From positions 1 to 24,301 of the IMG/VR virus record IMGVR_UViG_3300025125_000826: 24,301 bases of DNA; one strand, given 5' to 3'. A program made the translations under genes and the position numbers. Position 1 is the first letter of the stretch; each line of letters begins with the position of its first letter. This document shows, piece by piece, positions 438-16,817 of this stretch. A model generated the notes under the pieces. It made no database searches and had not been told where the DNA came from. It worked only from the letters and a program-made list of their open reading frames with translations. Source of the DNA: a virus.

Positions 438-1095
438 ACACGAGAGCCTAGCGGAGGCACTAGCAGCCGCCCAAGCAGAGATGAGTAACGTGGGAAAAAA
501 CGCGGAGAACTCGCACTTCAGGAGCAGCTACGCCGACCTGTCTGCGGTGCGCGACGCTGTGATCCCTCACCTCGCCAAGCATGGGATCGCATGCGTCCAG
601 AGCGTCAACGGCTGCGCCGCTGAGGACTCCGCGACCATCGTCACCACGATCTACTTTGGCGCAGAGTCGCTAGAGGTCGCGCGGTGCTCTGTGTCGCTGG
701 CTGGCGAGAAGGTGAAGCCGCCCGGCATCGGCAAGGCGAGTTCCTACCTGCGCCGCTACCAACTGGCCGGGCTGGGATCTGTCGCACAGACGGACGATCC
801 CGGAGACTCAGACTACGCGGCAGAGGCAGAAGAGGCCGAGAAGAAAGCCAGCACGGCACAGCAGCAATACAGCAAGGCCAAGCGGATCCTGCATGACGAG
901 GTCGGCTGTGCCAGCGAGGAAGCTGCAGACGCTGTGATCCGCTGGGTGACTGGCGGCAACTGGTCACTCAAGACCATGAGCGAGGATCCCGGTGACGTGC
1001 TGGCGGCGCTTCAAGAGAAGAACGACAACGGCACGCCCTACGGCGACATGCTGGGCGAGGCGGCAGAGGCCGCACGATTGGAGGCAGTACGATGA
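427..1095 (+). CDS. erf: ERF family single-strand DNA annealing protein
   Basis: The 222-residue product matches the ERF recombinase family. The N-terminal core (about residues 15-60) has the family pattern K-N...F-x-S-x-Y-A-D-L-x-x-V, followed by an HGI segment. The second signature, PGIGKASSYLRRYQLAGL (about 99-116), with QTDDPGD just after, corresponds to the G-S/A-x-x-Y-x-R-R-Y-x-L and DDDG-type motifs. ERF proteins form rings that anneal complementary single strands for phage recombination and genome circularisation. The C-terminal 90 residues are charged and helical and resemble no domain I know. The start is supported by GGAGG at 416-420. It overlaps the SSB gene by ATGA, and this pairing with SSB and RusA is a standard phage recombination module. 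Confidence 0.9.
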   Translation: MASKHESLAEALAAAQAEMSNVGKNAENSHFRSSYADLSAVRDAVIPHLAKHGIACVQSVNGCAAEDSATIVTTIYFGAESLEVARCSVSLAGEKVKPPGIGKASSYLRRYQLAGLGSVAQTDDPGDSDYAAEAEEAEKKASTAQQQYSKAKRILHDEVGCASEEAADAVIRWVTGGNWSLKTMSEDPGDVLAALQEKNDNGTPYGDMLGEAAEAARLEAVR

Positions 1096-1478
1096 TCAAC
1101 GTATTCACGGTGTTTGGACATCTGGCCGCAGACCCAGAAGAGAGGGAGGGCAACGCGCGCACCTTCGCCAAGGGTCGGCTGGGCGTGAGCCAGCCCAAAG
1201 ACAAGCCTACGATGTGGTTCGATCTGGTCTGCTTCAATCAGTGGGCGATGCGCGATCTGATGCGCGGCGGGCGCGGCTCTGGCTGTGTCGTCACCGGTCA
1301 GCTTGAAATGCGCGAGTACCAGGGCAAGCTCTACTACTCGATCGTGTGCTCCGGTGTCCGTGTCGAGGGCCCAGACGCTCACGATGTCGGAGCCACCGAG
1401 CGACCCTATAGCAAAGCACCATCGCCCGGCAGCGGCACGGCAGATCCCGAGGATGACCTCTCGGACATCCCCTTTTAA
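1092..1478 (+). CDS. ssb: Single-stranded DNA-binding protein
   Basis: A 128-residue protein with an OB-fold N-terminus (MINVFTVFGHLAADPE, then WFDLVCFNQWA and a GCVVTGQLEMREYQGKLYYSI segment) and an acidic tip DDLSDIPF, the bacterial SSB C-terminal peptide that recruits replication and repair partners. A Gly/Pro/Ser-rich linker (about residues 96-118) joins the two. It is shorter than typical chromosomal SSB (about 170), as usual in phages. The start overlaps the ERF stop as ATGA. It would coat single strands produced during phage replication and support ERF annealing. The intact bacterial-type tip is one of the better signs that the host is a bacterium. Confidence 0.93.
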   Translation: MINVFTVFGHLAADPEEREGNARTFAKGRLGVSQPKDKPTMWFDLVCFNQWAMRDLMRGGRGSGCVVTGQLEMREYQGKLYYSIVCSGVRVEGPDAHDVGATERPYSKAPSPGSGTADPEDDLSDIPF

Positions 1479-1480
1479 CC

Positions 1481-1951
1481 ATGACGACAACAACCACAGG
1501 CGGGGAGATGTTGCGAGCGTGGCTCAGCCGCCATCGGTTCAAGCAGAACGACCTTGCTGTTCGGGTGGGAGCCTCGCAGGCGACCATCAGCAAGATCATC
1601 TCGGGCGGGACCAGACCGGGCCTTGCGCTGGCTGAGCGGATCGCGGTAGCCACCATCTACCCAGACGAGTCAGCGCGGGCTGCCGTGGATGGCGTGCCTG
1701 CCTCGGCGTGGCTAACCGACACGGAGCGATCACAGCTTGACCTGCTCCGGGCCGCTGCGGCCCAGGTTGACGAGCGGGCGAGACAGGACACAGCCGCCGC
1801 CGTTGGCCGATGGCTTGAGTGGATGATGTGCGAGCGGGATCGCATGATCTCGGAGGTCGGCGGCCCGGCTACAGTGGAGACGATGGGCAGGCTGTTGGCA
1901 CACGATCGGCTCATTGAGGCCGGGCAAACACTTGTGGGAGGTCTGACATGA
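1481..1951 (+). CDS. Cro/CI-type helix-turn-helix regulator
   Basis: The protein is 156 residues from the ATG at 1481. Residues 11-55 form a Cro/CI (HTH_3) domain: LRAWLSRHRFKQNDLAVRVG, then ASQATISKIISGGTRPG and LALAERIAV. The C-terminal 90 residues are helical and not recognised; there is no obvious LexA-type protease domain. An internal ATG at 1508 sits 7 bases after AGG (1498-1500), whereas no SD precedes 1481, so the true protein may be 147 residues starting at the HTH. It lies inside the recombination operon between ssb and rusA, so it probably controls its own operon or the downstream GTGGATAC promoters. The target is not shown by sequence. Confidence 0.8.
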   Translation: MTTTTTGGEMLRAWLSRHRFKQNDLAVRVGASQATISKIISGGTRPGLALAERIAVATIYPDESARAAVDGVPASAWLTDTERSQLDLLRAAAAQVDERARQDTAAAVGRWLEWMMCERDRMISEVGGPATVETMGRLLAHDRLIEAGQTLVGGLT

Positions 1952-2217
1952 TCGACGACGGATACAACCACCTCAACGACTGCGACGACGGCACCCACAG
2001 AGGAGCCGCAGAGCCGCCAGGGAGCCGTTGCCGGTGCTGCGGCAAGCCACTGCACGAGATGAGCTTGGAGCACGTTCAGCTTGCCGCACAGGCTGCGACA
2101 GGGGCCACCGCGGATCCCGTCGAGGAGTTCACCGAAGAGGATCGGCAGTGGGCGCGCGATGAGCAGGCCGATCACATCAGCAGTGATCGCGGTCGCTGGC
2201 GATGGTGGGGCCGCTGA
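1948..2217 (+). CDS. Small hypothetical protein with CxCC motif
   Basis: An 89-residue acidic protein coupled to the HTH gene by an ATGA overlap. Its only motif is CRCCGKPL at about residues 28-35, half of a possible zinc-binding site. The rest is Asp/Glu-rich and hydrophilic, ending in an unusual RGRWRWWGR stretch. I recognise no family. It lies directly upstream of rusA and shares TGATG with it, so translation is likely coupled. A role as an accessory factor of the recombination genes is possible but unsupported. Confidence 0.6.
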   Translation: MIDDGYNHLNDCDDGTHRGAAEPPGSRCRCCGKPLHEMSLEHVQLAAQAATGATADPVEEFTEEDRQWARDEQADHISSDRGRWRWWGR

Positions 2218-2714
2218 TGTCAGACGTTGAGGGCTTGGAGTGCTGGACCTGCACGATCTACGGTGACCCCGTCGCCAAGGGTCGGCCCAGGTTCGCCCGG
2301 CGCGGGCGAGGCGTGGTCAGCTACACGCCAGCCAAGACGCAGGTCTTTGAGGCCGAGGCAGCGGCGCTCTTCGTTGAGTCGTGGGGCGACCGTCCACCAC
2401 TGGCCCAGCCCTGTGAGCTAACCGTGGTCAGCATCTTCAAGCGGCCCGAGCGGCTGAGGTGCAAGCACAAGCGGCCATGCAAGTGCGACCCGCGCAGGCT
2501 CCCTCACGTCTCGCGCCCGGACCTAGACAACTGCCTAAAAGCTTGCGCTGACGCCCTGCAACGCTTCACGGCAGACGGGCGATCCGTGCTTGCCGATGAC
2601 TCGCTGATCTGCTCTCTGCATGCCGTCAAGGTGTACGCAGCAGACGATCCCTATGATGAGCCGCGCACAGAGGTGCGGCTCTGCTGGGGCGATGCTGTCG
2701 AGGCGATGCGGTGA
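2217..2714 (+). CDS. rusA: RusA-like Holliday junction resolvase
   Basis: The 165-residue product matches the RusA endodeoxyribonuclease family. YGDPVAKGRPRF (about residues 15-26) and YTPAKT (about 36-41) form the N-terminal signature. The metal-binding acidic residues are in RPDLDNCLKACADAL (D102, D104) and LADDSL (D127, D128). RusA dimers cut four-way junctions symmetrically and in phages often process recombination intermediates before packaging. An insert CKHKRPCKC at about 82-90 adds a Cys/Lys cluster not usual in Escherichia coli RusA and may bind metal or DNA. I chose ATG 2217 over 2202 because it overlaps the upstream stop as TGATG and follows GGTGGGG with a 6-base gap. Confidence 0.88.
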   Translation: MSDVEGLECWTCTIYGDPVAKGRPRFARRGRGVVSYTPAKTQVFEAEAAALFVESWGDRPPLAQPCELTVVSIFKRPERLRCKHKRPCKCDPRRLPHVSRPDLDNCLKACADALQRFTADGRSVLADDSLICSLHAVKVYAADDPYDEPRTEVRLCWGDAVEAMR

Positions 2715-2932
2715 GGTCGTTTGAGTCCATGCAGGCAGCGGCTGATCATGCTGTCGAGAACGCGGATCGCTGTGGCTGGTGCGGCTATCTCACCGGGCAC
2801 AATGTCGCGGTGCCGTGCGAGCTTATGGCTCAGGAGAAGCCGCCCGTCCTGATCGTCTCGGTGATCTGCCAGGACTGCGCCGAGGCGATGCAGGACACGA
2901 TCGCCGCATGCAGACCACAGGTGCCGCTGTGA
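2711..2932 (+). CDS. Small zinc ribbon hypothetical protein
   Basis: A 73-residue protein from a GTG at 2711 that overlaps the rusA stop as GTGA. Two cysteine pairs, CGWC (about residues 21-24) and CQDC (about 53-56), suggest one zinc-binding site. The segment between them is neutral to hydrophobic (PPVLIVSVI) and probably forms beta strands. There is no family I can name. GTGA coupling to both neighbours indicates it is co-translated with the recombination operon. Confidence 0.65.
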   Translation: MRSFESMQAAADHAVENADRCGWCGYLTGHNVAVPCELMAQEKPPVLIVSVICQDCAEAMQDTIAACRPQVPL

Positions 2933-3270
2933 GGGCACGGCGCGTCTATTGGAAGGGGCACACCTATCCAACGATCGGATGGGCTCTCGGCGACGTGCTG
3001 TTAGCCTTCCCGCTGGCAAGCGATCAGCAGGTGGCCGAGTGGCTGAACGTGACACCTCAAACGATCTGCCTGTGGCGGCGCAAGGTGGGAATCGCAGAGT
3101 ACAGAATCAGGCACCAGACCAACCCCTACCGGCTCCGCAGCCGCCTCGCTAGGTGTGCCCATTGCCAGCGCTCGCACCGGCTGAAGCCTGCCCAGGTGCG
3201 CCGCAAGTGCCCCGGCTGCCAGCGGGCGATCGAGTTGACGGCGATCGAAGTCAGGGAGGCGGGGCGGTGA
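2929..3270 (+). CDS. HTH plus zinc ribbon DNA-binding protein
   Basis: A 113-residue basic protein starting at GTG 2929 (GTGA overlap with the upstream stop). Residues about 31-52 (SDQQVAEWLNVTPQTICLWR) form a clear helix-turn-helix of the AlpA/MerR/transposase-like type, followed by RRKVGI. Residues 76-97 hold CAHC...CPGC, a zinc ribbon. The combination suggests sequence-specific DNA binding, perhaps regulation or a replication accessory role. It abuts the methyltransferase gene by GTGA. I do not recognise a named family. A longer in-frame version beginning at 2779 would overlap the neighbouring gene almost wholly and is rejected. Confidence 0.7.
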   Translation: MRARRVYWKGHTYPTIGWALGDVLLAFPLASDQQVAEWLNVTPQTICLWRRKVGIAEYRIRHQTNPYRLRSRLARCAHCQRSHRLKPAQVRRKCPGCQRAIELTAIEVREAGR

Positions 3271-4463
3271 GGACCTGGGACATCCAGCAAGGCGACTGCC
3301 TCGACCTGCTGCGGGCTCTGCCTGACAACTGCATCGACGCCATCGTGACGGATCCGCCCTATGGGCTGGGATTCATGGGCAAGCAATGGGACGCGCTGCC
3401 GCCCGGCAAGGAGTGGGGCGCGGAGTGTCTGAGGGTCTGCAAGCCCGGATCGCACATCGTAGCCTTTGGCGGGCAGCGCACGATCCACCGCTTGATCTGC
3501 GGGCTTGAGGATGCCGGGTGGATGATCAGAGACTTGGGCGCGCACCAGCAGTGGCAAGGATTCCCAAAATCGCTCGCGGTCGGCAAGGCCATTGACGCGC
3601 ATCACGGCGCAAAGCGTGAGGTGGTGGGGCAGGGAGCCTTTGCAAGTCGCCGCCCCAAGGGGATCGGGTCGAGCGTGGCGCACGGCGACTACTCCACCGA
3701 GCCGGGGCACCCCATCACAGCACCAGCCACCGACGACGCCCGCAAGTGGGAAGGCTACGGCACCGCGCTCAAGCCTTGCCTCGAACCGTGGACCCTGGCC
3801 CGCAAGCCGCTGGACGGCACAGTCGCGGAGAACGTCCTGAAGTGGGGCACAGGTGCGCTCAACATCGACGGGTGCAGGTACGGGCACGGTGATCCGGCAT
3901 GGCCTGGGCCGCAGGAGAACGACGACACGGCGCGGCCTAACGGCACCTCCCCGATCTACGGCAGCGCCAAGGCCCCGCTTCAGGACATAGAATCATCGTC
4001 CCTAGGCCGCTGGCCCGCCAATGTGTTCGCGTGCCCGAAGGCATCCAGGGCAGAGCGTGAGGCGGGCTGCGGGCATCTCCCGGCATCCACCGCGGCAGAG
4101 GCCACAGGACGGAAGCCGGGATCCGCTGGACTCAACAACCCAAGAGCCGGGATCCGCGCCGGGATCGCTACCTCCGCAGCGAGGGCGGCGGGCAAGTTCA
4201 CGGAGGCCAGCCCGATCAGGAACCACCACCCCACTGTAAAGCCCGTCGCCCTCATGGCTTGGCTATGCAGGCTCGTGGGCGGGCAACCCGGCAGCCTGAT
4301 CCTAGACCCCTTCTGCGGCAGCGGCACCACCGGGATCGCAGCCCTGCGCGAGGGCTTCCGGTTCCTGGGCTTCGAGCTTGATCCTGAGTACATCCAGATC
4401 GCAGAGGCTCGGATCACTGGAGACGCTCCGCTCTTTAATCGCCGGGAGTCCGTGCTAGGCTGA
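3267..4463 (+). CDS. Orphan DNA methyltransferase, beta class (N6-adenine or N4-cytosine)
   Basis: The 398-residue protein starts at GTG 3267 (GTGA overlap). The catalytic motif IV TDPPYG is at residues 28-33 and the SAM-binding motif DPFCGSGTTG at about 347-356, so motif order is IV then I, the beta class (N6_N4_Mtase, PF01555). HPTVKPVALMAWL just before motif I matches motif X. About 300 residues lie between, including a long target-recognition region and a WGTGALNIDGCRYG segment common in phage members. No restriction gene is near, so it is an orphan enzyme, probably protecting phage DNA from host restriction or modulating expression. The recognition sequence cannot be read from the protein; the excess of GATC in the window makes GATC one candidate. 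Confidence 0.88.
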   Translation: MRTWDIQQGDCLDLLRALPDNCIDAIVTDPPYGLGFMGKQWDALPPGKEWGAECLRVCKPGSHIVAFGGQRTIHRLICGLEDAGWMIRDLGAHQQWQGFPKSLAVGKAIDAHHGAKREVVGQGAFASRRPKGIGSSVAHGDYSTEPGHPITAPATDDARKWEGYGTALKPCLEPWTLARKPLDGTVAENVLKWGTGALNIDGCRYGHGDPAWPGPQENDDTARPNGTSPIYGSAKAPLQDIESSSLGRWPANVFACPKASRAEREAGCGHLPASTAAEATGRKPGSAGLNNPRAGIRAGIATSAARAAGKFTEASPIRNHHPTVKPVALMAWLCRLVGGQPGSLILDPFCGSGTTGIAALREGFRFLGFELDPEYIQIAEARITGDAPLFNRRESVLG

Positions 4464-5510: not shown

Positions 5511-5798
5511 TATATGAAACAAGTACAAGACGTCGCCACAGGCAAGGCGACCCTCACAGAGGAGCAGGTTCAGATAGTCTGCTGCCTCCTCATGCGGGCG
5601 GCACAACTGCTTCTCTGGATGATGGACCGCCCGACGACACCACCCCACAAGCACCAGCCCAAGGGCAGCACAGGCGAGAGGGTCTTGGCGGCCGAAGCGG
5701 GCCTGTTCCTGAATGACCTCCGCCGGGTGCTGTCCGAGAACACCCTGCTCGGGACTCCCACGTTCGACCCTAGCTGGGCCGAAGGGCGGCGACCGTGA
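5508..5798 (+). CDS. Hypothetical helical protein, second gene of module 2
   Basis: A 96-residue protein. The N-terminal helix (LTEEQVQIVCCLLMRAAQLLLWMMDR, split here by function: a helix at residues 16-41) is hydrophobic enough to be an amphipathic or weakly membrane-associated segment. A Pro/His/Lys linker follows, then a second helix around ERVLAAEAGLFLNDLRRVL. The start is supported by AGGAGG five bases ahead. The stop overlaps the next gene as GTGA. No family is recognised. Confidence 0.62.
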   Translation: MYMKQVQDVATGKATLTEEQVQIVCCLLMRAAQLLLWMMDRPTTPPHKHQPKGSTGERVLAAEAGLFLNDLRRVLSENTLLGTPTFDPSWAEGRRP

Positions 5799-6049
5799 GC
5801 CCTCGCTATAAAACGAAAGATGGCAGGCCGCTGTGCCGCTACTGCCGCAAGCTGTTGGCTGAGGGGCGGCGAGTGGTGGATAACGTGAACGTCAGTTCGA
5901 CGGGAACAGACATGCGCTACATCTACGAGCCGATAGGCACCTACGGGCGGCTTGGCCGCAGCCTTTTTTGCACCATGACGTGCGCTGAGGAGTGGGCAAG
6001 CAGGCGAATCACTGGCCGCTCGGTGCCCCGAGGCAAGTCACACACCTAG
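5795..6049 (+). CDS. Small treble-clef/TRASH-like zinc-binding protein
   Basis: An 84-residue basic protein from GTG 5795 (GTGA overlap). CRYC (about residues 15-18) and FCTMTCAEEWA (about 61-71) resemble the two halves of a treble-clef or TRASH-type zinc site, where F-C-x3-C followed by an acidic helix is typical. About 42 residues separate the halves. It may bind nucleic acid or protein. The family assignment is a motif impression only. Confidence 0.6.
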   Translation: MSPRYKTKDGRPLCRYCRKLLAEGRRVVDNVNVSSTGTDMRYIYEPIGTYGRLGRSLFCTMTCAEEWASRRITGRSVPRGKSHT

Positions 6050-6060
6050 CCACCCACAAC

Positions 6061-6088
6061 GCCCCACGGGGCACAGGAGACAGACATG
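6061..6088 (+). promoter_or_regulatory. Hairpin and SD start-associated element, copy A
   Basis: The palindrome GCCCCACGGGGC (6061-6072) is followed by ACAGGAGACAGAC and ATG 6086. The 21 bases 6068-6088 are identical to 6203-6223 (copy B), a clear duplication of the translation start region. Confidence 0.65.
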
Positions 6089-6427
6089 AGCGAGCCCGCC
6101 CACTGCGGCACATGCTTTGGCGACCTAGAAGGGGGTCGGCGTTACCCCTGCGACAGTGTAGCCGCGACCCGCGCGGCCTATTTATCCCACTTCACCCCGC
6201 AAGGGGCACAGGAGACAGACATGCTGAAGGCAGAGCCCAAGGAACAACCCACGGAACAACCCAAGCGAGGACGAAAGAAGCGCGCGGCTGCCCTGGTCGA
6301 GCGCCACCGCAGCATCAGGATCAACGATCAGAAGTGGGCCAAGATCCAGGCAGCCGCGAAGAAGGCGGGCAAGCCCACCACCACCTGGGCGCGTGATGTG
6401 CTTGAGGCTGCTAGCGAGCCAGCCTAG
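6086..6427 (+). CDS. Ribbon-helix-helix protein with two nested starts
   Basis: The frame gives 113 residues from ATG 6086 and 68 from the in-frame ATG 6221. The C-terminal part (RHRSIRINDQKWAKIQ, then AAKKAGKPTTTWARDVLEAA) is a ribbon-helix-helix DNA-binding domain of the Arc/CopG type: a beta strand SIRIND followed by two helices. It is preceded by a basic stretch RGRKKR. The N-terminal 45 residues contain HCGTC and YPCDS and look like a separate small Cys protein. Because the second start carries its own hairpin and SD, identical to the first, the long frame may be a fusion of two small genes, or a gene making two products. The RHH protein is a candidate regulator of the nearby GTGGATAC promoters. 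The 3' end overlaps the convergent gene by 17 bases. Confidence 0.75.
   Translation: MSEPAHCGTCFGDLEGGRRYPCDSVAATRAAYLSHFTPQGAQETDMLKAEPKEQPTEQPKRGRKKRAAALVERHRSIRINDQKWAKIQAAAKKAGKPTTTWARDVLEAASEPA
6195..6223 (+). promoter_or_regulatory. Internal hairpin and SD start element, copy B
   Basis: CCCC (6195-6198) GCAA GGGG (6203-6206) makes a hairpin with a GNRA-type tetraloop. AGGAG (6210-6214) and ATG 6221 follow. It lies inside the frame that starts at 6086 and would direct translation of the 68-residue RHH protein alone. Confidence 0.65.
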
Positions 6428-6911
6428 CGATCCGCTTCTCCAGCCGTTGCCGGGCTAGCTTGGACATCGCCGGGCCTCGGTCTTCCAGTTTCTTGCGGAG
6501 ACGGTCCAGCCGCTTGCCCTTCATGCGGGATCGGCGCTCGATCGATCTGTAGATGCCCACGGCGGCGGCAGCCACAAAGAAGATGATCAGCCCGTCGAGC
6601 GCTTCAAGGATCGGATCGCTCAGCTTGATCGCTTTGTCGATGCGGTGCGCTAGCTCCATGCAGTGCGCCAGATCCTCCTCAACCTGGGACAGCCCCTCTA
6701 CCTCATCGGCGAGATCGTGGACTACCTCAGACAGCAGGTTCAGCACCGGGCCCGAGTGCTTCTCGATAGCCTCGGCTGCCTTGCGCTTGTGCTCAAGCCT
6801 ACGGGATCTGGTGGCCTCGGCCTCGCTGCGCCTGGGCGCTGGCTTCTTCCTGGGCGCTGGCTTGCGCGCTGTCGGCTTCCTGGCTGTGGGCTTCTTCTTC
6901 GCGGTGGGCAT
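6411..6911 (-). CDS. Membrane protein with basic Lys/Arg/Pro/Ala N-terminal repeats
   Basis: A 166-residue protein. Residues 4-28 are a histone H1-like repeat region (KPTARKPTARKPAPRKKPAP), followed by a charged helix (29-52), another helical region and one membrane segment (about 103-121, ILEALDGLIIFFVAAAAVGIY), then a very basic C-terminus. It is the last gene of the late operon and starts within TAATG of the upstream holin-like gene. The strongly basic ends contrast with the acidic tails of the two nearby lysis-region proteins, so charge pairing is conceivable. No family is recognised. The 3' end overlaps the converging plus-strand gene by 17 bases. Confidence 0.7.
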   Translation of the reverse strand: MPTAKKKPTARKPTARKPAPRKKPAPRRSEAEATRSRRLEHKRKAAEAIEKHSGPVLNLLSEVVHDLADEVEGLSQVEEDLAHCMELAHRIDKAIKLSDPILEALDGLIIFFVAAAAVGIYRSIERRSRMKGKRLDRLRKKLEDRGPAMSKLARQRLEKRIARLAR

Positions 6912-7457: not shown

Positions 7458-7605
7458 CGTCGCCCGCCGAGTCGTCGTCGTCCGCGCTGTCGTCGTCGTC
7501 GCTGAACGTGGGCGGGCCTCCGTCGCTCCAGTACATCAAAGACATGAGGCCCAGGATCGCAAGGATCGCCAGGGCTGTCAGGGTTCGCTCTTGTTTGGCT
7601 GTCAT
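7438..7605 (-). CDS. Small membrane protein with DDDDSA repeat tail
   Basis: A 55-residue protein: a polar N-terminus (MTAKQERT), one membrane helix (about residues 9-26, LTALAILAILGLMSLMYW), a short SDGGPPTF linker and the acidic tail DDDDSADDDDSAGDDDSADR. The ATG at 7605 overlaps the endolysin stop as ATGA. The tail would lie in the periplasm if the N-terminus stays inside. Asp-rich Ser-Ala repeats of this kind are, as I recall, common next to membrane anchors in Myxococcota-like proteins. Function unknown; its place suggests lysis control or envelope anchoring. Confidence 0.65.
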   Translation of the reverse strand: MTAKQERTLTALAILAILGLMSLMYWSDGGPPTFSDDDDSADDDDSAGDDDSADR

Positions 7606-8015
7606 CTGTTCAACTCGAAGTGAGGGAGATCCATGAATGACTGATCGCGCAGACCGTCTCTGCTCGTCCAAACGTCGCCGCTCCAGTCGCCGCCCCAGCG
7701 AAGATCCTTGATCCCTAGCTGAGATGCAACCCCAAAGACGAAGCCCGCAAAGTGCCGCATCCTCTCTTGGCCGCGGCGCGTCCACTCGACCGGGTACGGC
7801 ACCACGTCGCAGGCCAGCGACAGGGGCTCGGCCAAGTGCTTGCTAAACATGGTCCGAGACTTGCCTGTTCGCACAAGCTCGCGCTGCCGCTCCTCGCTGC
7901 GCTGGCCTTCCAGCACCGTGCAGTCGTAACGCTTGATCACAGCATTGAACAGGATCACGAGATCGGGATGGCAGGTGTGCAGGTGTCCAAGGCTGCGCTT
8001 GCTAAAGGCGGGCAT
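7602..8015 (-). CDS. M15-type peptidase endolysin (L-Ala-D-Glu/D-Ala-D-Ala family)
   Basis: The 137-residue protein has the zinc-peptidase signature of the M15/VanY-like phage endolysins: S-K-H60 followed by D70 in FSKHLAEPLSLACDVVPYPV, and H132 in the final DLPHFEL motif. VLEGQRSEERQRELV upstream (about residues 34-48) matches the family GxRSxxxQ region. It should cut the peptide crosslinks of peptidoglycan at lysis. It has no signal peptide, so it needs a holin. It starts at ATG 8015 (TGATG overlap with the upstream gene); a longer frame to 8186 lies over that gene and is rejected. The H-to-D spacing is two or three residues longer than in classical SxHxxxxAxD members. Confidence 0.88.
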   Translation of the reverse strand: MPAFSKRSLGHLHTCHPDLVILFNAVIKRYDCTVLEGQRSEERQRELVRTGKSRTMFSKHLAEPLSLACDVVPYPVEWTRRGQERMRHFAGFVFGVASQLGIKDLRWGGDWSGDVWTSRDGLRDQSFMDLPHFELNR

Positions 8016-8215
8016 CAGCGAGCCGGGATCACCACGCTGCCGGTCTCTGGATCGTGCTTGTGTGTTGCGATGTTCTGGCCCATGCAATCGATCTTCGACT
8101 CGATCCCCTTGAGCATGAATAGGATCTTGGAAGCCCAGGCGGCGGCAGTGATAATTGCAAGCACGATCCCGGTGACGATCGGCCATGCCTCAGAGAGCGC
8201 GTGGAGTGTCTGCAT
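8015..8215 (-). CDS. Small membrane protein, candidate holin
   Basis: A 66-residue protein with one N-terminal membrane segment (about residues 10-35, AWPIVTGIVLAIITAAAWAS then KILFML) followed by a polar tail with helix KGIESKIDCMGQNIA and a short HKHDPETG region. It sits immediately upstream of the endolysin gene with a TGATG overlap, the usual holin position. The SD is AGGA nine bases ahead of ATG 8215. It could alternatively be a regulator of lysis; sequence alone does not decide between this gene and the one at 6911-7099. Confidence 0.65.
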   Translation of the reverse strand: MQTLHALSEAWPIVTGIVLAIITAAAWASKILFMLKGIESKIDCMGQNIATHKHDPETGSVVIPAR

Positions 8216-8232
8216 GTGTCATCATCCTACTG

Positions 8233-9852
8233 CTACAGGGTGCGCGGGTCACGGGCGGGATCTTCAATAGCCCGCAGGGTGATCTCCATTGAACGGCCAG
8301 ACATCCAACGGATCGCAGACACGAGACAGAGTTGCGACGAGAAGGAGATCTCTGCGTCCGTCAATAGCACAGGATCGCCAAGCTCCAAGTAACCGAATGA
8401 CGACGGCGCGGAATATGACACAGACCGGGACGCCAGAGCAAAGGCGCGAGACCACCAGCCGCAGACCTTCGCAGCCGTCGGATCGTCATAGATGATCTCG
8501 CTGCTGTCTTCCCGCACCCTGCTGCCGTATCTGCCCGCGGATACGCGACAGTAGTTGTTGCTGCTGGCTCCACCAGCGATCACAAGCTCATCACCGCTCA
8601 GCGTATAGTCTTTCGTTGGCTTGCCGGTGTCCGCATTGAAGGCGTATGCGAGCCGGTATTCGTTGGCGATCCCGTCGATGTCCGAGAAGCTCACGGCGGT
8701 CTGCCGCTGCACCTCTGCCCGGTCAGCGCGCAGGTGTGCGATAGCATCGCCCGCTAGCGCGTCAAACCGCCACAGCACAAAGGCCAGCCCGCCGGATGTC
8801 GTGGCGTGCGCTGGAGTGATCGGCAGGATCGGCAACAGGTGCTGTTGAATGTAGGCCCACGGATCCACCCGACGATCTGGCGCAGCCTGGATCGCACAGT
8901 CAACCCGGTAGGCATTGAGCGCAGGCAGGATCGCAGCCAGTCGCCCACGATCCCAGCGCAGCGACGATCGCTCAAGCAGCCAGCGCAGGACAGAGCCCGC
9001 GCCGCTGATCGCCCCGCCGTCGTGGTCTGCGTGTCCTCCGGCATCGGCGGGCCACTTGATCCAATAGGCGGCGTCGTCGTCTGTGGTAAGCCCCTCATTA
9101 AATCCGGCACAGTCCAGCATCGCCACCGTCCGACCGCTGCCGTCCGTCTGGTGCTCAACAGCAACGGCGCTGTCGTCTGTGCCGTCGGTGGCATTCAGGA
9201 CTCCCACGCTTGCCGCCTGCACCGCATGCCCGGCGATCAGCAGGTGCTTGTTTCCAGAAGCGTTCGTATCGACAAAGAGCGCAGCAGATCCGTAGGTCTC
9301 GCCCGCTCCGGGGCTGCCCAGGATCTGCGGGTACCACATGAGCGCCGCGGGCTCTGCATGATCTGCCCAGGTGTCATCATTCACGCGCTCGCGGAAGTCT
9401 GGGATCAAGTCGGGTTCGGTCGCTGGGAACTCCTCAAGCGTTGCGGTGATCGGCTCCGCTGCGCTGCCATACTCAGGCGCGCGGAACCGCCCAGAGACAA
9501 CAACGATCCGGTAGCTGTCCTCCGTCGAGTCTCCCTCGGCCCACAGAGACAGCACGCCGGTTGCTGCCGAGAAGTCGCGACCCGCCGCGATCTCCGCTGG
9601 CACATCCACGATCCCGGCGAGGTTCAGAGTCACCGAGACGGACGGCAGCGACGAAGCATCCGCGAACAGGTCCAGCACCTGATCCACGCTCCCGCCCATG
9701 TCGAGGCCCGGCAGGTAATCTACCATCGCGTGATGCTCGCCAAAGGGTGCGCGGCGGTGCTGCTCAGACAGCCGCAGCGAGCGGCCAAGCCAGTCAACGT
9801 CGAGCAGCCAGACCAGATCGGAGCCAGCCAGATTGGCGGGCAGGAAGGACAC
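8233..9852 (-). CDS. Tail hub / baseplate-like tail tip protein
   Basis: A 539-residue protein starting at GTG 9852 (shared with the upstream TAG). It follows the large tail protein downstream of the tape measure, the place of siphovirus tail hub genes. The C-terminal 100 residues (SRAFALASRSVSYSAP, FGYLELGDPVLLTDAE, then LCLVSAIRWMSGRSMEITL) match the terminal beta domain I know from phage tail hub proteins, where a YLELGD/GD-I-V-x-L-T-D motif is frequent. The middle (about residues 160-340) is unrecognised. It would close the distal tail and connect to receptor-binding parts. There is no sign of a peptidase motif. Confidence 0.65.
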   Translation of the reverse strand: MSFLPANLAGSDLVWLLDVDWLGRSLRLSEQHRRAPFGEHHAMVDYLPGLDMGGSVDQVLDLFADASSLPSVSVTLNLAGIVDVPAEIAAGRDFSAATGVLSLWAEGDSTEDSYRIVVVSGRFRAPEYGSAAEPITATLEEFPATEPDLIPDFRERVNDDTWADHAEPAALMWYPQILGSPGAGETYGSAALFVDTNASGNKHLLIAGHAVQAASVGVLNATDGTDDSAVAVEHQTDGSGRTVAMLDCAGFNEGLTTDDDAAYWIKWPADAGGHADHDGGAISGAGSVLRWLLERSSLRWDRGRLAAILPALNAYRVDCAIQAAPDRRVDPWAYIQQHLLPILPITPAHATTSGGLAFVLWRFDALAGDAIAHLRADRAEVQRQTAVSFSDIDGIANEYRLAYAFNADTGKPTKDYTLSGDELVIAGGASSNNYCRVSAGRYGSRVREDSSEIIYDDPTAAKVCGWWSRAFALASRSVSYSAPSSFGYLELGDPVLLTDAEISFSSQLCLVSAIRWMSGRSMEITLRAIEDPARDPRTL

Positions 9853-12800
9853 TAGACCACCTCGGTGATGGTGATCGTTGCGATCCGATCCACCTCGCCC
9901 ACCGTCTCATCTCCGGTGATGTGCTCGCGCCTGAACTCGCCCGAAGCGCGCCCGTACATGAACTGGCGCGGGTTGTTGATAGTGTCAGGCGTTGCGCTGT
10001 TGGTCGGGATCCGTCCGATGTAGACGACTGGAGCATCAGCCGATGTCGCCTCACGTAGCGCGCCCTCAAGCGTCCGGGCGATGTCCGATCGCGTCGCAAC
10101 CGGGAGCCCGCCTGTGGTGCCCGCTACGTAGTCGGGAACCGCTGAGGCTGCCTGTGTCTGGCTGGCGTCCACTCCATCGCTCCACGATAGCTCAAGGGCC
10201 CGCAGCGGCGGGCCTGTGCGGTGCGCTCTGGTGCTGCCGTCTGGATAGTCCAGCACGGTGGATCCTGACGTGGTGATGGTGGTGAATCCTCGGCTTGGCT
10301 GGTGGCCGAAGATCAGCAGAGAGCCGATCAGGATCTGGCCGATCTTGTAGGTGCCGCTCACCGTGCCCTGGCTCGCCGGGATCCGCAGCCGGATATATCG
10401 CGGCCCGTCTGTGATCTCGTGGGCGATCCCCAGCATGTCGGGGAACCAGATCCGGCAGTCTCCGGTGTCTGCCTCTGAGTCGTCCACGTCGTCCAGCAGC
10501 AGGCGCGGGCGCTTTGCCGTGCTGTCCGTCCACGCGCCCTCAGTCTGCGTCAGGATCTCGCGGCTCTTAGAGTTGGTCGTGTCTCGCCATGTGGCTCCGC
10601 GCACATCGTCGAAGTTGAGATAACGGCCCGCAGTGTTCGCGCTGGCCGCGTTCACTGTGACGACGTTGCCGGAGCGGGTGAACTTCAGCGCGTCAAAGCC
10701 CTCCGCAGCGTCAAGCGTGATCCATGTCTCCCATGATGTGCCGCCAGCGTCCCACCACTCAAGGTATGCGGTGCGGAAGTTGCAGCCCAACAGCGCACAG
10801 CCGATCGAAGAGTTGAGCATCGAGCTTGCTGTTGCCCCTGTCAGATTGTGGAGATCGAAGACGATCTCTTGTGCCGCCTCGTCCTCAGACTCCCACCGCA
10901 CGCGCGGGCTTTGCACGTCCAGAGCGTGATCGATTGGGCCATCGTAGCTCGCGCCGATCGTCCACGTCTCGCCCTCAAGCGTGGGCCCGTCAATGGCTGC
11001 GATCTTTGTGTTGCCGTCCAGCAGCGCAGGCGAGCCCAGCGGCGGGACGTTGCGCGGGTGCAGGTCTGCGGGAGTTGTCCAGCTTGTGCCGATCCCGTCG
11101 TCGTGAGTCGGTGCCCACCGATCAGCCCAGCCGCACAGCCCGAACATATACCAAGATGCCACGTCGTCTGTGACTCCGTTGAAGGATCCAAACTCGATGA
11201 CAGACTTGTTGCCGCCGACTCCGTTGTCACCGATCGCGCCGCCTGGGCCTTCTGTCCACTCAAGCACATGAGCCGCGCGAGCCCACCACGTCTGGGCCGT
11301 TGCGGTCGCTCCGTCCATGGAGATCGCTACCCGGTGATAGATCAGAGAATCGCCCGTGGTCGTGTCTTCCGTGACGGTGCCCAGCACCGATGGGGTCTTT
11401 GCGTCGAGCACCTTCCAGCCAGAGGACGCGAAGCGATACCGCACTTCATGGCTCACGCCTGCGCTTGGAGACAGGCGCACCTTCACAGCCACGTCATCGG
11501 AGGCAGTGTTGCCCGCTCCGTCGGCAAGCGTCACCGCAAAGGTCGCGAAGATGTGATCCGTTGCTGTGACATCCTCAATGAAGTTGGTATTGCCGCTCGC
11601 GCTGTCTGTCTGGAAGACGATCGCGACGCTCGGCACCAGCACCCCGGCTCGGCTCTGCGTCGTCAGGGTCCCGGCAGATCCGGTCTTCGTCCACCCGGAG
11701 TTCTCCGCATTGTTGATCGGCACATAGAAGAAGCCCTCGCCGCTGCCGCCGCTGATCTGGTCGCCGTATCCGCTGCCGTCAGTGTCTGAAAACTCGGTGC
11801 CGGAGTCTCCGAGCGGGGCGGTGTGCGTGCCGTATCCTCCCAGGTGGATCGCCGCCAAACTCTGATCGTCGTGGCTGCTGTGCTCTGCGTCCCACCGAGT
11901 CACCATGATCGCCCGGCCAGAGGTAGACGCCACAGCAAAGCGCAGGAAGGCGGGAGAGTTGCCGGTGCTGAACACGTCAAGGCCGCGCGCTACGTTGTGG
12001 CTGGCGAAGGTCCGGGCATCATCGTGCGAGACATAGATCGCGGCCTCTGAGTGCGTGAGCAGTTCGCACATCACAAAGATCGATCCCGTCTCGTCTCGCC
12101 ACAGGGCGATCGGCGTGTTGTCTCCAAAGGGGTGAGTAGCTAAGAGCGTAGCAACATCTACCGCGGTCTGAGATGTCGAGTAGGCCGAGGCGATCCGGTA
12201 AACCCTGGACTCGCCATCGGCGCGGTGAGCCACAGCCACAACGAAGCCGCCACCGTCTCCAGCTATTACAGCGGGAGCCGTGATCGTTGAGGCATCTATG
12301 TCAGCGTTCCAGTCGTCTACCACCTGAGTAAAGCGCAGCCCGAGATCGTCGCTGGCGTATTGGCTCATTGTGTAGTTGCTGCTGCCGTCCTCCCACATCA
12401 GCCACAAGCCGACCTCTCCAGCCGAGTAGGCCGCTGCGATCTTGAGAATGGATCCACTACAAGCCGTCCGCAGAGCGCGCGTGGACGCCAGCGCCCAGGT
12501 ATCCATCTCATCGTCCGAGTAATAGACGGTCACCTGTGCCGTTTGGCGAGCGATGCCGAACCACAAGATCCGGCCTGACGGCAACTCGACCAGCGCGGGC
12601 CCGGTCTGCTCTTGACCGCTGCCGAGGGTGCGAGTCTTGACGGTCCAGATCGCAGTTGTGGGATCGTATAGGTGGAAGGTCTGGAACTGCCCAGAGCCTG
12701 CCGGGGTCTGGCCTCCGGCACACAGCAGCTTGCCGTTAGCAAGCCGGATGATCGCGGGGTATTCGTCCGACGCGCTGCCGTCTGTGCTTTCTACCAGGGT

Positions 12801-13136
12801 CTCCCATCCAGTCACGACGCTGTAGGGATCCCATCCGTTCCAGTTGGGCCCCAGTCCGCTGCTGTTGTCTCGCCATAGAAAGCCTGCGCCGTCTCTGCCA
12901 GGATGCCCGGCGCGCTGCGTGTAGACCTCCAGCAAGCCGCCCTCATCCATGTCTCCTGTTGCCTGCAGAAGCATGTCCGTATCTGCCGTGGGGCTTGGCA
13001 CGTCCGGCCTTGAGCCCGCCTGCCCGAAGTCGCTGTCAGTGTTGCCGGTGCCGTGCTGCGTGATGTTGTCAATGGTGATCCGCGAGTCTGGGATCAACAA
13101 CCCTTGATAGCGTGACGCGCTGCGATCTGTGGACAT
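9852..13136 (-). CDS. Large tail protein with sialidase-like propeller and lectin-like domains
   Basis: At 1094 residues, this is the largest gene in the window, next to the tape measure. Residues about 110-430 look like a sialidase/BNR beta-propeller. Three Asp-box motifs (S-x-D-x-x-x-x-W/F) occur: SDDEMDTW (207-214), SDDLGLRF (262-269) and SHDDARTF (370-377). Blade-like repeats are also present (AIIRLANGKLLCAGG, ALVELPSGRILWFG). The following 250 residues look like a concanavalin/LamG-type jelly roll, and the C-terminal third is beta-rich and unrecognised. The likely role is host glycan recognition or trimming at the tail tip. I cannot confirm catalytic residues, so a binding-only propeller is equally possible. 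The start at ATG 13136 is preceded by AGGAG that partly overlaps the end of the tape measure gene. Confidence 0.75.
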   Translation of the reverse strand: MSTDRSASRYQGLLIPDSRITIDNITQHGTGNTDSDFGQAGSRPDVPSPTADTDMLLQATGDMDEGGLLEVYTQRAGHPGRDGAGFLWRDNSSGLGPNWNGWDPYSVVTGWETLVESTDGSASDEYPAIIRLANGKLLCAGGQTPAGSGQFQTFHLYDPTTAIWTVKTRTLGSGQEQTGPALVELPSGRILWFGIARQTAQVTVYYSDDEMDTWALASTRALRTACSGSILKIAAAYSAGEVGLWLMWEDGSSNYTMSQYASDDLGLRFTQVVDDWNADIDASTITAPAVIAGDGGGFVVAVAHRADGESRVYRIASAYSTSQTAVDVATLLATHPFGDNTPIALWRDETGSIFVMCELLTHSEAAIYVSHDDARTFASHNVARGLDVFSTGNSPAFLRFAVASTSGRAIMVTRWDAEHSSHDDQSLAAIHLGGYGTHTAPLGDSGTEFSDTDGSGYGDQISGGSGEGFFYVPINNAENSGWTKTGSAGTLTTQSRAGVLVPSVAIVFQTDSASGNTNFIEDVTATDHIFATFAVTLADGAGNTASDDVAVKVRLSPSAGVSHEVRYRFASSGWKVLDAKTPSVLGTVTEDTTTGDSLIYHRVAISMDGATATAQTWWARAAHVLEWTEGPGGAIGDNGVGGNKSVIEFGSFNGVTDDVASWYMFGLCGWADRWAPTHDDGIGTSWTTPADLHPRNVPPLGSPALLDGNTKIAAIDGPTLEGETWTIGASYDGPIDHALDVQSPRVRWESEDEAAQEIVFDLHNLTGATASSMLNSSIGCALLGCNFRTAYLEWWDAGGTSWETWITLDAAEGFDALKFTRSGNVVTVNAASANTAGRYLNFDDVRGATWRDTTNSKSREILTQTEGAWTDSTAKRPRLLLDDVDDSEADTGDCRIWFPDMLGIAHEITDGPRYIRLRIPASQGTVSGTYKIGQILIGSLLIFGHQPSRGFTTITTSGSTVLDYPDGSTRAHRTGPPLRALELSWSDGVDASQTQAASAVPDYVAGTTGGLPVATRSDIARTLEGALREATSADAPVVYIGRIPTNSATPDTINNPRQFMYGRASGEFRREHITGDETVGEVDRIATITITEVV

Positions 13137-13139
13137 CTG

Positions 13140-15335
13140 TCAACTCCTGTAGGGGTTGTATCTGCCGACCCGGCGCGGGCGCACAGCGCGAAGCTCTCGT
13201 GTAAGCCTGCCGCCCGGACGGCGCAGGCTCTCGTGGATCATGGCATCGACTGCACGATGTCCCACTTGGAAGACCGTCACATTGGCACCGCCAGCACCGC
13301 CGCCCGCGTTCAGAGCGTTGACGCCGCCAGCGCCGCCAGCAGCAGCCACCCCTTGCGGAGACAGCACAGCCTCGCCAGCACGGGCGCGGATGTTTACCTC
13401 GTCATGGGCGCGCATCTGAGAACTGATCATGCCGCCCGCGTGAAACTGTGGCGGCGGCTCTGCGGCAATTGCAGCAACCTGAGCCGCTCCCATGGCCCCA
13501 GCAATCGCGGCCAAGACAAAGGCCGGAGGGCCGGGCGTGCCTGCTAGCTGCATCGCGATCCCCGCCGCCGCATTGATCACGGCTTGGCTGATGGCGAATG
13601 CCTGCGAGACGTGCCACGCCTCAAGCACCTCCTCCTTCTGTGCGGCCTGCCGCGCCTTGAGCATGTTGCGGTGCTCGAAGAGCCGCTCGCGCTCTGTCTC
13701 TGTGGCGGCTCCGGCGATCCTCTTCTCAACGTCCTTGAGCCTGTCTGCCGTCTCCTCAGCCGCTGCAGTGCGGTCTGCCAGGATCTGATCGCTCACCTGG
13801 GACATGATGTCTAACGTGGCATTTGCCACGTCCTGAGCAAGGCTGATCGCCTGCTGGCGAGCGCTCTCCGCATCTTCCGCAGAGAATCGCGGGGTAAGGT
13901 CGAGGGCCTCATCGAAGAGATCCTCATCGATGAGTCTGTCAGCGAACTCCGAGAATGTCTCCCCGGCTGCCGCTAGGGCGCGGTCAAAGGATCCGAAGTC
14001 GGTGAGGGTATCAACGAGATCAGACAGGCCCTCAGCCGCGCCCTCGGCTGCCGTGCCGATGTCGTCTAGCTCCTCCTCCATCCCGCCAGCGCTCTTGGTT
14101 GCCTTGGTTGTCTCTTCTCCGAGCTTGCCGATCTCCGCACTGGCGCGGGCTATCACCTCAAGCATCGACTCCGCAGCAAGATCGATCGCTCCGATCTCAA
14201 AGCCAAGCGAGTCCGCCTGCTCCATAAGCTCGTCAAAGGACTGTCCGACAGCGAACATCCCATCCGTCGCATCCTCCATGAGCGACCGAGCGAGCGACAG
14301 GTTGCCCAGAGTCAGCGCACGCACCGCCCCAAGAGTCCGCCAAAGGGCCGGATTCATCGCAAGCGCAGCCTGAGCAGCCAGAGCCATCGCACTGCCCAGG
14401 ACGCCGATCGACAGTGCAGCCTTGCCAGATCCGCGAGTCACGATCACAAGCAACGGCGCAACTACGTCAAGCATCGTGCGGCTGAATGCTTGACTGAGGC
14501 CCTCTATCTGCTCAGGGTCTGCGGCACCCATGGCCTCACTCAAGCCGTCGGATAGCTTTGTAAGCACCGGCAACATCGGCGCGAGGGCATCATCCCGCAA
14601 GGCGTTGGCCCTGCGCTTGAGCAGAGTCAGCGCGTCGGCTAGATCCTCACCCTGCCGCGCCGTCTCGTTGCTGATGATCCCCGCGTCCTCGATGAGCTTG
14701 GACGACTCGCGGATAGCGTCGCCGCCCTCGGTGAAGGCTGCAAGCATGTCCAGGGCACCGCGCCCAAGCAGCGCCTGCGCTGTCTGCGCGCGCTTGCTCT
14801 GGCTCGTCATCGTGCCCAAGCCGTCAGCGATTAACGCGATCCGCTCATCCAACGGCACCCTGTCGAGTTGCTCAAACGTGAGGCCCAGATCCTCAAGGGC
14901 CTCGACCTGCATCTTGCTGCCCTTGGCGGCCATGCCTAGATTGACGCTCAGCTTCTGGATCGCGTTGGCTGTCGTCTCTGCCTGCACGCCTCCAAGCTCA
15001 AGGGCCCCGGTGAGAATCTGTAGCTCTTCTGCCGTGGTGCCGATCGCTTTGGCCCTTTTGGCGATTTCGTCGGCTCGCTTGGCGAGGTCAACCGCAGCGC
15101 CCACGATCTTGCTGGTGGCAACAGCGGCGGCGGCGGCAGCTACAGCGATAGCACCAAGCCCGGCCTTGAGCGCCTTGCTTGCCTTCTCCGCATTGCTCAG
15201 TCCAGCAGCGCCGCGCTTGCCTGCGCTCTCCATCTCGTCGCCAGCCTCGCGGCCCTCGCTCTGGACGGACCGAAGCGCACGCTCCAGATCGGAGGCATCG
15301 CCTACAAAGCTGAACTCGATCCGCTTGCCAGCCAT
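13140..15335 (-). CDS. Tail tape measure protein
   Basis: A 731-residue protein rich in Ala, Glu, Lys and Arg, with long helical and coiled-coil stretches, a hydrophobic segment near the N-terminus (about residues 58-85, with a run of eight alanines) and another near 615-650, typical of phage tape measure proteins. EEVLEAWHVSQAFAISQAV and the Ala/Gly-rich HAGGMISSQ...GEAVLSPQGV near the end are common in this family. Its length would predict a tail of roughly 110 nm at about 0.15 nm per residue. I chose ATG 15335 over an in-frame TTG at 15356 because it follows the chaperone stop (15337-15339) by one base, as in many phages. It lies between the chaperones and the tail tip genes. Confidence 0.92.
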   Translation of the reverse strand: MAGKRIEFSFVGDASDLERALRSVQSEGREAGDEMESAGKRGAAGLSNAEKASKALKAGLGAIAVAAAAAAVATSKIVGAAVDLAKRADEIAKRAKAIGTTAEELQILTGALELGGVQAETTANAIQKLSVNLGMAAKGSKMQVEALEDLGLTFEQLDRVPLDERIALIADGLGTMTSQSKRAQTAQALLGRGALDMLAAFTEGGDAIRESSKLIEDAGIISNETARQGEDLADALTLLKRRANALRDDALAPMLPVLTKLSDGLSEAMGAADPEQIEGLSQAFSRTMLDVVAPLLVIVTRGSGKAALSIGVLGSAMALAAQAALAMNPALWRTLGAVRALTLGNLSLARSLMEDATDGMFAVGQSFDELMEQADSLGFEIGAIDLAAESMLEVIARASAEIGKLGEETTKATKSAGGMEEELDDIGTAAEGAAEGLSDLVDTLTDFGSFDRALAAAGETFSEFADRLIDEDLFDEALDLTPRFSAEDAESARQQAISLAQDVANATLDIMSQVSDQILADRTAAAEETADRLKDVEKRIAGAATETERERLFEHRNMLKARQAAQKEEVLEAWHVSQAFAISQAVINAAAGIAMQLAGTPGPPAFVLAAIAGAMGAAQVAAIAAEPPPQFHAGGMISSQMRAHDEVNIRARAGEAVLSPQGVAAAGGAGGVNALNAGGGAGGANVTVFQVGHRAVDAMIHESLRRPGGRLTRELRAVRPRRVGRYNPYRS

Positions 15336-15336
15336 G

Positions 15337-15681
15337 TCAGTCAAGCCACCAATCAACGGCTTCCGGCGAGAACTTCTCAGCCATGGCAGATCGCACGGCG
15401 CGCGACTGCGTGGGCTTCTTCTGTGGCGGGTGAGTCATGAGCCAGAAGTGTGCGAGGTCTCCCACGGTAGCAGGAGCGCCCAGCATCATCCGCGCGGAGG
15501 CCGGAGTCACCACGTCCGAGCCCTTGCCGGGCGGTTGGTCTGAGGCCCGCGCGATCTTCCAGTAGGCCAGAAGGTCACACTGGGTCTCACGATCAAACCT
15601 CCAAAGAGCGTGCGGATCGCGGAAGAGACTGACCCCTAGATCGATCGCGATCAGGTCGCCAACGCCGGGCCCGGTGCAGTA
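15337..15681 (-). CDS. Frameshift extension of the tail assembly chaperone (gpT-like)
   Basis: An open frame of 114 codons has no good start of its own and lies in the -1 frame relative to the chaperone gene at 15651-16127. It opens at the slippery heptamer 15681-15687 and reads YCTGPGVGDLIAIDLG..., continues through DPHALWRFDRETQCDLLAYW, and ends WWLD one base before the tape measure ATG. This is the layout of the gpG/gpGT pair of lambda and of most siphoviruses, in which a -1 slip makes a longer chaperone that helps load tail tube protein on the tape measure. Fused to the first 149 residues it gives about 263. Without the frameshift this 300-base stretch would appear non-coding. Confidence 0.85.
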   Translation of the reverse strand, partial: YCTGPGVGDLIAIDLGVSLFRDPHALWRFDRETQCDLLAYWKIARASDQPPGKGSDVVTPASARMMLGAPATVGDLAHFWLMTHPPQKKPTQSRAVRSAMAEKFSPEAVDWWLD

Positions 15682-16127: not shown

Positions 16128-16260
16128 TGGCCTTGCCTTTCTTGTTGTTGACCTTCGCCACCTCATCGGATAGCTGAGCCTGTAGCTCGCTGATCTCCGA
16201 GGATCGGCGGCGGCGAGCGTCCGCGATCTGCGCTTGCAGCTTCTCGATCTTGCCAGACAT
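16093..16260 (-). CDS. Short coiled-coil protein between tail tube and chaperone genes
   Basis: A 55-residue protein, MSGKIEKLQAQIADARRRRS..., highly charged, with a leucine-spaced coiled-coil helix over about residues 5-37 and a Lys/Ala-rich tail ending PADDS. The ATG at 16260 overlaps the stop of the major tail protein gene as TGATG, and the frame fills otherwise unexplained sequence with the same codon use. It overlaps the start of the chaperone gene. It may be an extra chaperone or tube-binding factor. No family is recognised. Confidence 0.7.
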   Translation of the reverse strand: MSGKIEKLQAQIADARRRRSSEISELQAQLSDEVAKVNNKKGKASAKADTPADDS

Positions 16261-16817
16261 CAGAGCAGCACCGAAGGCTCAACAGCCCAGGACGTGCCGC
16301 TGATCGTCACGGTGTTTGGGTCGCCTTCTGCGATGGCGCAGTTGACCGTGCATGCAGAGAGGACGAGCTTATGAACGTCGGTCGCGTCTCCCTGATTGGT
16401 CACGACCCAGCGCAGATCGATGGCGAACACCTCGGCATCATCTGCGGCGATCGAGGTGCTCAGAGTGCTCACCCAGTTGCTGCCCGCATAGCCCTGATTG
16501 CTGATGATGTCCACCAGCGCAGGCGCGGATGAGTCAGTCAGATCGCGGAAGTATGCCGAGAAGGAAAAGGTGATCGCCTGATCGTCGCCGTACCTCACGG
16601 ACGGCGGCAAGGTGAACTTGCCCCGATCGAGATAGCTGGAGATCGTAGCCTGCGGGATCGTCAGGCTGAGATCGCCCGCCTCGTAAGCAACGGTATATGT
16701 GTCTGCTCCCGAGTTGATCCCCGCCGACGCGCTGAATGCGCCGCCGCCTGCCGTGCATTGTGAGCCCAGCGTGAGAACACCGTCCAGCTTGGTGTGAATG
16801 ATCGTGGATTCTGACAT
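16260..16817 (-). CDS. Major tail (tube) protein
   Basis: A 185-residue beta-rich protein, MSESTIIHTKLDGVLTLGSQ..., with the size, position (before the chaperones and tape measure) and Thr/Ser/Gly-rich composition of siphovirus tail tube proteins. It ends GTSWAVEPSVLL. No tail sheath gene is nearby, so the tail is non-contractile. AGGAG stands eight bases before ATG 16817, making it one of the better SDs of the late operon, as expected for an abundant protein. A hairpin CGGGC/GCCCG (16837-16850) lies just upstream, within the end of the preceding gene. The name is based on position and composition rather than a specific motif. Confidence 0.8.
   Translation of the reverse strand: MSESTIIHTKLDGVLTLGSQCTAGGGAFSASAGINSGADTYTVAYEAGDLSLTIPQATISSYLDRGKFTLPPSVRYGDDQAITFSFSAYFRDLTDSSAPALVDIISNQGYAGSNWVSTLSTSIAADDAEVFAIDLRWVVTNQGDATDVHKLVLSACTVNCAIAEGDPNTVTISGTSWAVEPSVLL

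Follow-up and report, generated by a model that had tools for sequence, protein, structure and literature searches.

The window, that is, the whole stretch of viral DNA analysed here (24,301 nucleotides), is a virus record of 24.3 kb and a fragment, and other fibre genes may be missing from it. According to its list of open reading frames, the minus-strand ORF 9852–13136 starts with ATG and encodes 1094 amino acids (Table 1). A gap of 3 bases separates it from the tape measure gene, while its stop codon and the start codon of the gene that comes next overlap by a single base. This next gene was assigned as a hub on the basis of its copy at locus L016, which scored above the Phage-tail_3 cut-off (26.2 vs. 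23 bits) and also matched phrog_31 (central tail fiber J), together with a below-cut-off Phage-tail_3 match in the window itself (19.6 of 23 bits). Beyond the hub, no other ORF of tail-fibre size was present in the window. The 8.2 kb past the hub hold an endolysin gene directly after it (7602–8186, minus strand; phrog_465, E 1e-35; weak Peptidase_M15_4 match) and, on the opposite strand, a block of early genes (427–4463, plus strand) for an ERF annealing protein, SSB, an HTH regulator, a RusA resolvase and an N6/N4 DNA methylase. Three related loci (L014, L021 and L028) carry an extra ORF of 502–625 amino acids past the hub, which is absent from the window and possibly encodes a fibre.

Table 1. 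Genes and predicted features of the tail-tip locus (positions in the window)
Feature	Position	Strand	Evidence
Tape measure protein, gene before	13140..15356	-	phrog_8462 E 4.4e-20, best among PHROG tape-measure families
Tail-tip protein, whole gene	9852..13136	-	ORF, family of 24 viral contigs, gene order
N-terminal beta-rich domain, residues 1-105	12822..13136	-	Predicted strands, pLDDT mostly 80-91
Predicted six-bladed sialidase-type propeller, residues about 106-455	11772..12821	-	AF2, VIA-align, A2 profile
E125-Y126-P127, where GH33 has its RIP motif, without the arginine	12756..12764	-	Proline anchor and co-linear VIA start
Asp-box 1, SDDEMDTW, residues 207-214	12495..12518	-	Alignment A2, pattern scan
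Asp-box 2, SDDLGLRF, residues 262-269	12330..12353	-	Alignment A2, pattern scan
Asp-box 3, SHDDARTF, residues 370-377	12006..12029	-	Alignment A2, pattern scan
Predicted beta-sandwich, residues about 490-690	11067..11669	-	AF2 strands; Foldseek GH43/GH32 match span
Predicted discoidin/CBM32-type jelly roll, residues about 730-941	10314..10949	-	VIA Z 9.8-8.0, F5/8C and CBM32 chains
Putative C-terminal tail-ring (Dit/gpM-like) domain, residues about 938-1094	9855..10325	-	VIA, Foldseek
Hub / J-like tail protein, gene after, 539 aa	8233..9852	-	Phage-tail_3, phrog_31 in L016 copy

The window protein alone gave no significant Pfam, PHROGs or PADLOC match. A phmmer search of the PDB placed a Kelch protein first (E 0.014) ahead of a sialidase (E 0.21), so that the single sequence left the fold unsettled and only the family profile settled it. 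Likewise, tblastn with the window protein had no match among phages (50,697 records) or plasmids (72,556 records), nor did three of its relatives match the phage records. Scanning IMG/VR with the single protein retrieved one copy (L002, 97% identity). Searches via the tape measure led from its relatives to proteins in the same slot with 30–32% identity, and the resulting family profile recovered 24 viral contigs in all from IMG/VR. The gene order is well preserved: with a threshold of E 1e-2, the propeller gene is preceded by a tape-measure match and followed by a hub match in 23 of 24 loci, the sole exception on both sides being L027, whose record stops inside the gene. The original prediction, which placed the protein on the tail and next to the tape measure, was borne out. 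Of two genome contig searches, one returned no relative, and the other had L053 among the matches listed. BFVD contained two full-length homologues, A0A0F7L6H2 and A0A0F7L5L8, both from uncultured marine virus (TM about 0.86, 27–29% identity to the window protein); one is already named 'Sialidase domain-containing protein', a name that is fold-based. With 24 viral contigs, 12 of 377 genomes sampled in one phylum and two BFVD homologues, the description of such propellers in phage tails as rare proved too strong. Word searches of the literature found no published description of this protein family.

Three alignments were used, namely A1 (4 rows), A2 (25 rows) and a 35-row set for active-site counts and the tree. 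The 35 members share mostly 20–35% identity; they include L089, which was kept although its N-terminal half is probably misframed, the truncated L027 and the near-duplicate pairs L009/L010 and L020/L030, while split or partial copies (L088, L091, L092 and L093) and the doubtful L090 stayed outside. In the tree, the window pairs with L002 and then joins a 9-row clade (95/97) that includes G252 and G199. A diverged relative on a 99-kb viral contig (L071, positions 2–2805) showed a propeller with five Asp-box-like repeats, and its ring-like C-terminal part is located on a separate ORF of 227 amino acids. A protein encoded at 16260–16817 of the window (minus strand), which had no Pfam or PHROG match, is 84–88% identical in L009–L011, where the propeller protein is only 28–29% identical.

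The AlphaFold2 model computed with A2 (pLDDT 76.8, pTM 0.71) was compared with known structures. Superposition of residues 106–455 by VIA-align yielded human Neu2 (4ncs) with Z 27.9, an rmsd of 3.4 and 306 aligned residues, as well as GH93 enzymes with Z 26.7. Profile searches agreed with this result: among 100 distinct PDB sequences at E up to 10, the A2 profile matched GH33 sialidases (sialidase B 4xe9, E 1.3e-10), the best PDB sequences for A1 were 2w38/3h6j, a Pseudomonas aeruginosa sialidase entitled pseudaminidase in its entry, and hhalign against three GH33 sequences gave E 1.8e-7. A Foldseek search of the PDB with the full model had GH43/GH32 enzymes on top and the pseudaminidase 2w38 at rank 27. 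A Kelch or WD fold was rejected, as none of the 50 VIA matches listed for the full model was a Kelch protein; apart from sialidases and GH93 arabinanases/arabinofuranosidases, they included two chains that are either uncharacterised or designed. The model and the profiles firmly support a six-bladed sialidase-type propeller, not a seven-bladed WD fold, and the BNR/sialidase-type propeller that had been proposed from blade-like sequence at residues about 110–430 agrees with the predicted extent.

The three Asp-box motifs on which that proposal was built are indeed present (starting at residues 207, 262 and 370), in degenerate form: none fits the strict pattern S-x-D-x-G-x-T-W. From composition, 0.46 occurrences of the loose pattern S-x-D-x4-[WF] are expected, and at least three arose in 210 of 20,000 shuffles; taken alone, the three boxes are evidence at the level of about 1%, which is modest. 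They become convincing because relatives carry consensus boxes at the same places, most of them showing SDD-N/E/S-GATW, SxDLGxTF and SxDGGxTW at the aligned positions, and A2 shows no variation among its 25 rows at S207, D208, D209, T213 and W214. The excerpt of PMC2716378 describes Asp-boxes as repeated S/T-x-D/N-x-G-x-T/S-W/F/Y hairpins, in which the Asp and the final aromatic residue are obligatory; every box in the window has both. Pfam BNR_2 matched 15 of 25 members (best E 3.8e-10) and did not match the window's own copy.

Beyond the propeller, a beta-sandwich, a discoidin/CBM32-type module and a tail-ring candidate were predicted. The Foldseek GH43/GH32 matches span about 590 columns, corresponding to the propeller plus the adjoining beta-sandwich, by which we infer that the predicted sandwich is concanavalin-like. 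Residues 730–941 were modelled with a CBM32/discoidin fold, matching 2yc2 (Z 9.8) and the CBM32 chain 2xqx (Z 9.4) over about 112 residues. The lectin-like domains of the original prediction hence stand for this module and are plausible for residues 490–690. Residues 690–1094 were also folded apart (pLDDT 77.5, pTM 0.75). VIA-align superposed the C-terminal domain on DT57C baseplate chain H (Z 7.5), diffocin (Z 6.5), the lambda tail tip (Z 6.2, 107/109 aligned) and T1 (Z 6.2, 107/116), all scores (Z 6.2–7.5) falling short of 8, the value under which the tool itself advises caution. The matches are labelled by assembly only; judging by chain length, we take the tail-tip chains to be Dit-type ring subunits (gpM in lambda). 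The top three Foldseek matches of the 690–1094 part were baseplate chains with weak E values (0.028–0.039), and hhalign against lambda gpM was not significant (E 0.19), the aligned piece joining the same helix-strand element. These moderate structural scores and the gene position provide moderate support for a Dit/gpM-like ring fold in the modelled C-terminal ~155 residues. The Dit slot and this putative ring-type domain, which the original prediction had missed, are the more informative context of the propeller.

Catalytic positions in the propeller were mapped approximately, via proline and Asp-box anchors and not on a superposed model, since the register of the global hhalign alignment with GH33 made no sense and the local one slipped by one blade. 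In the column of the RIP arginine (125), the window has Glu and 2 of 35 rows have Arg, while P127 is kept in 23 of 35. Reference GH33-type genes (L077–L079) contained FRIP/YRIP and GPGHG/GPGRG in all three cases. A G-X-G-X-G bulge in blade 3 is given as a GH33 feature in the excerpt of PMC2716378; G-x-G-x-G is absent from the window and occurs in 1 of 35 rows, inside an insertion. The only widely conserved arginines of the 35 rows that are present in the window are R189 in the LPSGR strand (33/35) and R408 in an SGR turn (25/35); column 234 has Arg in 24/35 and Ala in the window. Under this approximate mapping, none of the remaining Arg pair, the Tyr/Glu nucleophile or the Asp acid-base is conserved across the 35 rows. 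If the slipped register is taken instead (blade 2, 'PALV-LPSGR'), the residue two places ahead of the proline is Arg in 3/35 rows and Thr in the window. Of the 35 members, 17 contain 'RIP' at some point of the sequence, the window copy being Arg918-Ile-Pro920 in the C-terminal half, outside the propeller. The arginine triad, Tyr and Asp that the original prediction had suggested looking for therefore appear to be absent as a set at sequence level, and none of the findings singles out sialic or nonulosonic acids, of which the latter had been suggested as possible host glycans. Because the RIP arginine is replaced, G-X-G-X-G is missing and no family-wide arginine fits the triad, the propeller is probably a sialidase-shaped, non-catalytic module. 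GH33 catalysis appears unlikely, and some other chemistry is possible.

With the order tape measure, propeller gene and hub, the gene occupies the slot of a Dit. The protein is not a free tailspike: the gene sits in this slot in 23 of 24 contigs. Instead, we consider it probable that it is an 'evolved Dit'-like tail-tip ring protein with glycan-binding decorations, most plausibly of a siphovirus-like temperate phage. The C-terminal ring domain would occupy the tail axis, flanked by tape measure and hub, with the propeller, the beta-sandwich and the discoidin/CBM32 module projecting outward. The propeller, apparently devoid of the GH33 catalytic set, would serve as a glycan-binding surface, and the arms, multiplied by ring symmetry, may bind a host surface polysaccharide so that the tail adsorbs before the hub engages or opens. 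That the protein assembles into a ring, that its arms project and bind sugar, and that it does not catalyse are inferences. A bolder version, which we regard as tentative, is that a Myxococcota temperate siphovirus-like lineage has replaced separate fibres by an enlarged Dit ring, whose pseudo-enzyme crown of disabled sialidase propellers and CBM32-like domains would recognise the host's polysaccharide coat.

Most of the conserved residues in the propeller belong to the Asp-box fold, as would also be expected if the propeller were purely a structural spacer or ring-stabilising decoration and recognition were left to the discoidin domain, the hub or an unsequenced fibre. The fragmentary nature of the 24.3-kb window, from which fibre genes may be missing, and the further 502–625 aa ORF after the hub in L014, L021 and L028 fit this alternative. 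However, the inter-blade loops are highly variable in the alignment, as for a recognition surface, and the fold of the discoidin module belongs in its own right to a sugar-binding type; we rate the spacer as rather unlikely. The propeller might also be enzymatically active, as a glycosidase or lyase on the tail that represents a different Asp-box type (GH93-like or new) and trims a host glycan. GH93 enzymes superpose almost as well as Neu2 (Z 26.7), GH43/GH32 enzymes lead the Foldseek PDB matches, and some columns have catalytic-type residues, namely Glu in column 364 (17/35, window included) and Tyr in column 396 (15/35, Ala in the window), close to where the nucleophile strand is expected. 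Against an enzyme of this kind, the invariant or near-invariant acids of the 35 members are those of the Asp-boxes, and no invariant Asp, Glu, Tyr or Arg was found outside Asp-box or structural-strand positions, whereas enzyme families this deep normally retain their catalytic acids; this makes it an improbable reading. A genuine GH33-like sialidase, of exo or endo type, that attacks host nonulosonic acids, for which the propeller fold (Z 27.9 to Neu2) and the pseudaminidase 2w38/3h6j as best PDB match of A1 could be cited, is very hard to reconcile with Glu125 in place of the RIP arginine, the missing G-x-G-x-G and the lack of a conserved triad.

The evolved Dit-like reading finds its closest counterparts in siphophages. 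The excerpt of PMC7291167 describes a TMP-Dit-Tal triad and terms CBM-bearing Dits 'evolved Dits', and according to that of PMC10688798 an evolved Dit helps adsorption to exopolysaccharide-bearing hosts. Like the evolved Dits of lactococcal, streptococcal and Lactobacillus siphophages covered there, the window protein lies in the slot between TMP and Tal/hub, combines a putative ring-type domain with putative carbohydrate-binding decorations and has a proposed role in adsorption. It differs in that the CBM-like domain and the propeller are N-terminal to the ring-like domain, whereas the classical CBM resides in loops of the peripheral galectin domain, in its six-bladed sialidase-fold propeller and in its larger size (1094 aa). 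Among the ring proteins of lambda (gpM), T1 and T5-like phages (DT57C), its modelled C-terminal ~155 residues align with 107/109 residues of gpM; gpM, in contrast, is a ring-only Dit (PMC7291167, in part), and the two lack a significant sequence match. With GH33 sialidases (Neu2, NanB, NanI and PaNA) it shares the six-bladed Asp-box propeller and family-level profile homology, but not the RIP arginine, G-x-G-x-G or a conserved triad. A0A0F7L6H2 and A0A0F7L5L8 are its full-length structural homologues, both uncharacterised database entries. Sialidase-fold propellers on phage tails are also known from the endosialidase tailspikes of K1F and phi92. These are trimeric catalytic tailspikes and not ring proteins. 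Both are mentioned in the excerpt of PMC4901313, which reports a GlcNAc-sized cavity in the propeller of the phi11 RBP (Gp45). Gp45 likewise employs a propeller at the baseplate of the tail to recognise glycans, a role that would apply here by analogy; unlike the window protein, it is five-bladed, forms a coiled-coil trimer and lies outside the Dit slot. If the evolved Dit-like reading is true, such adhesion devices, documented mainly for siphophages of Gram-positive bacteria as far as the excerpt of PMC7291167 goes, would extend to a catalytically stripped sialidase fold. A 'sialidase domain' in a phage annotation should not be equated with sialidase activity.

The A2 profile matched 12 of 377 genomes, all from the phylum of G001 (the genome that contains L053), a frequency sampled in a single phylum; eleven matches were strong and one, G371, was doubtful (E 5.5e-11, partial, one stop). 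MYXO-CTERM (TIGR03901) was detected in 7 of the 8 genomes tested of these 12 and in 0 of 14 controls, pointing to Myxococcota as the hosts of the family, and the window's own host would by extension belong there as well. The G001 record is labelled Pseudomonadota, in contrast to its MYXO-CTERM signal. In G001:C110, L053 belongs to a phage with the same tail module inside a 315-kb chromosomal contig. At 20–30 kb off, the flanks (L095–L098) encode OmpA, a DegT aminotransferase and two radical SAM proteins, with Pfam matches for 4 of 10 flanking ORFs, a setting that suits a prophage. If these assignments are true, the protein is a receptor-binding candidate for phages with relatives in Myxococcota genomes. 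Among known myxophages, Mx8 and Mx9 are podoviruses and the word Siphoviridae is absent from the excerpted text of the myxophage review (PMC6070905), while Mx1 and Mx4 have contractile tails according to the excerpt of PMC10720576. In a further genome, the 36.9-kb contig G229:C27 (L099) carries a phage integrase gene (5516–6700, plus strand) near the propeller gene.
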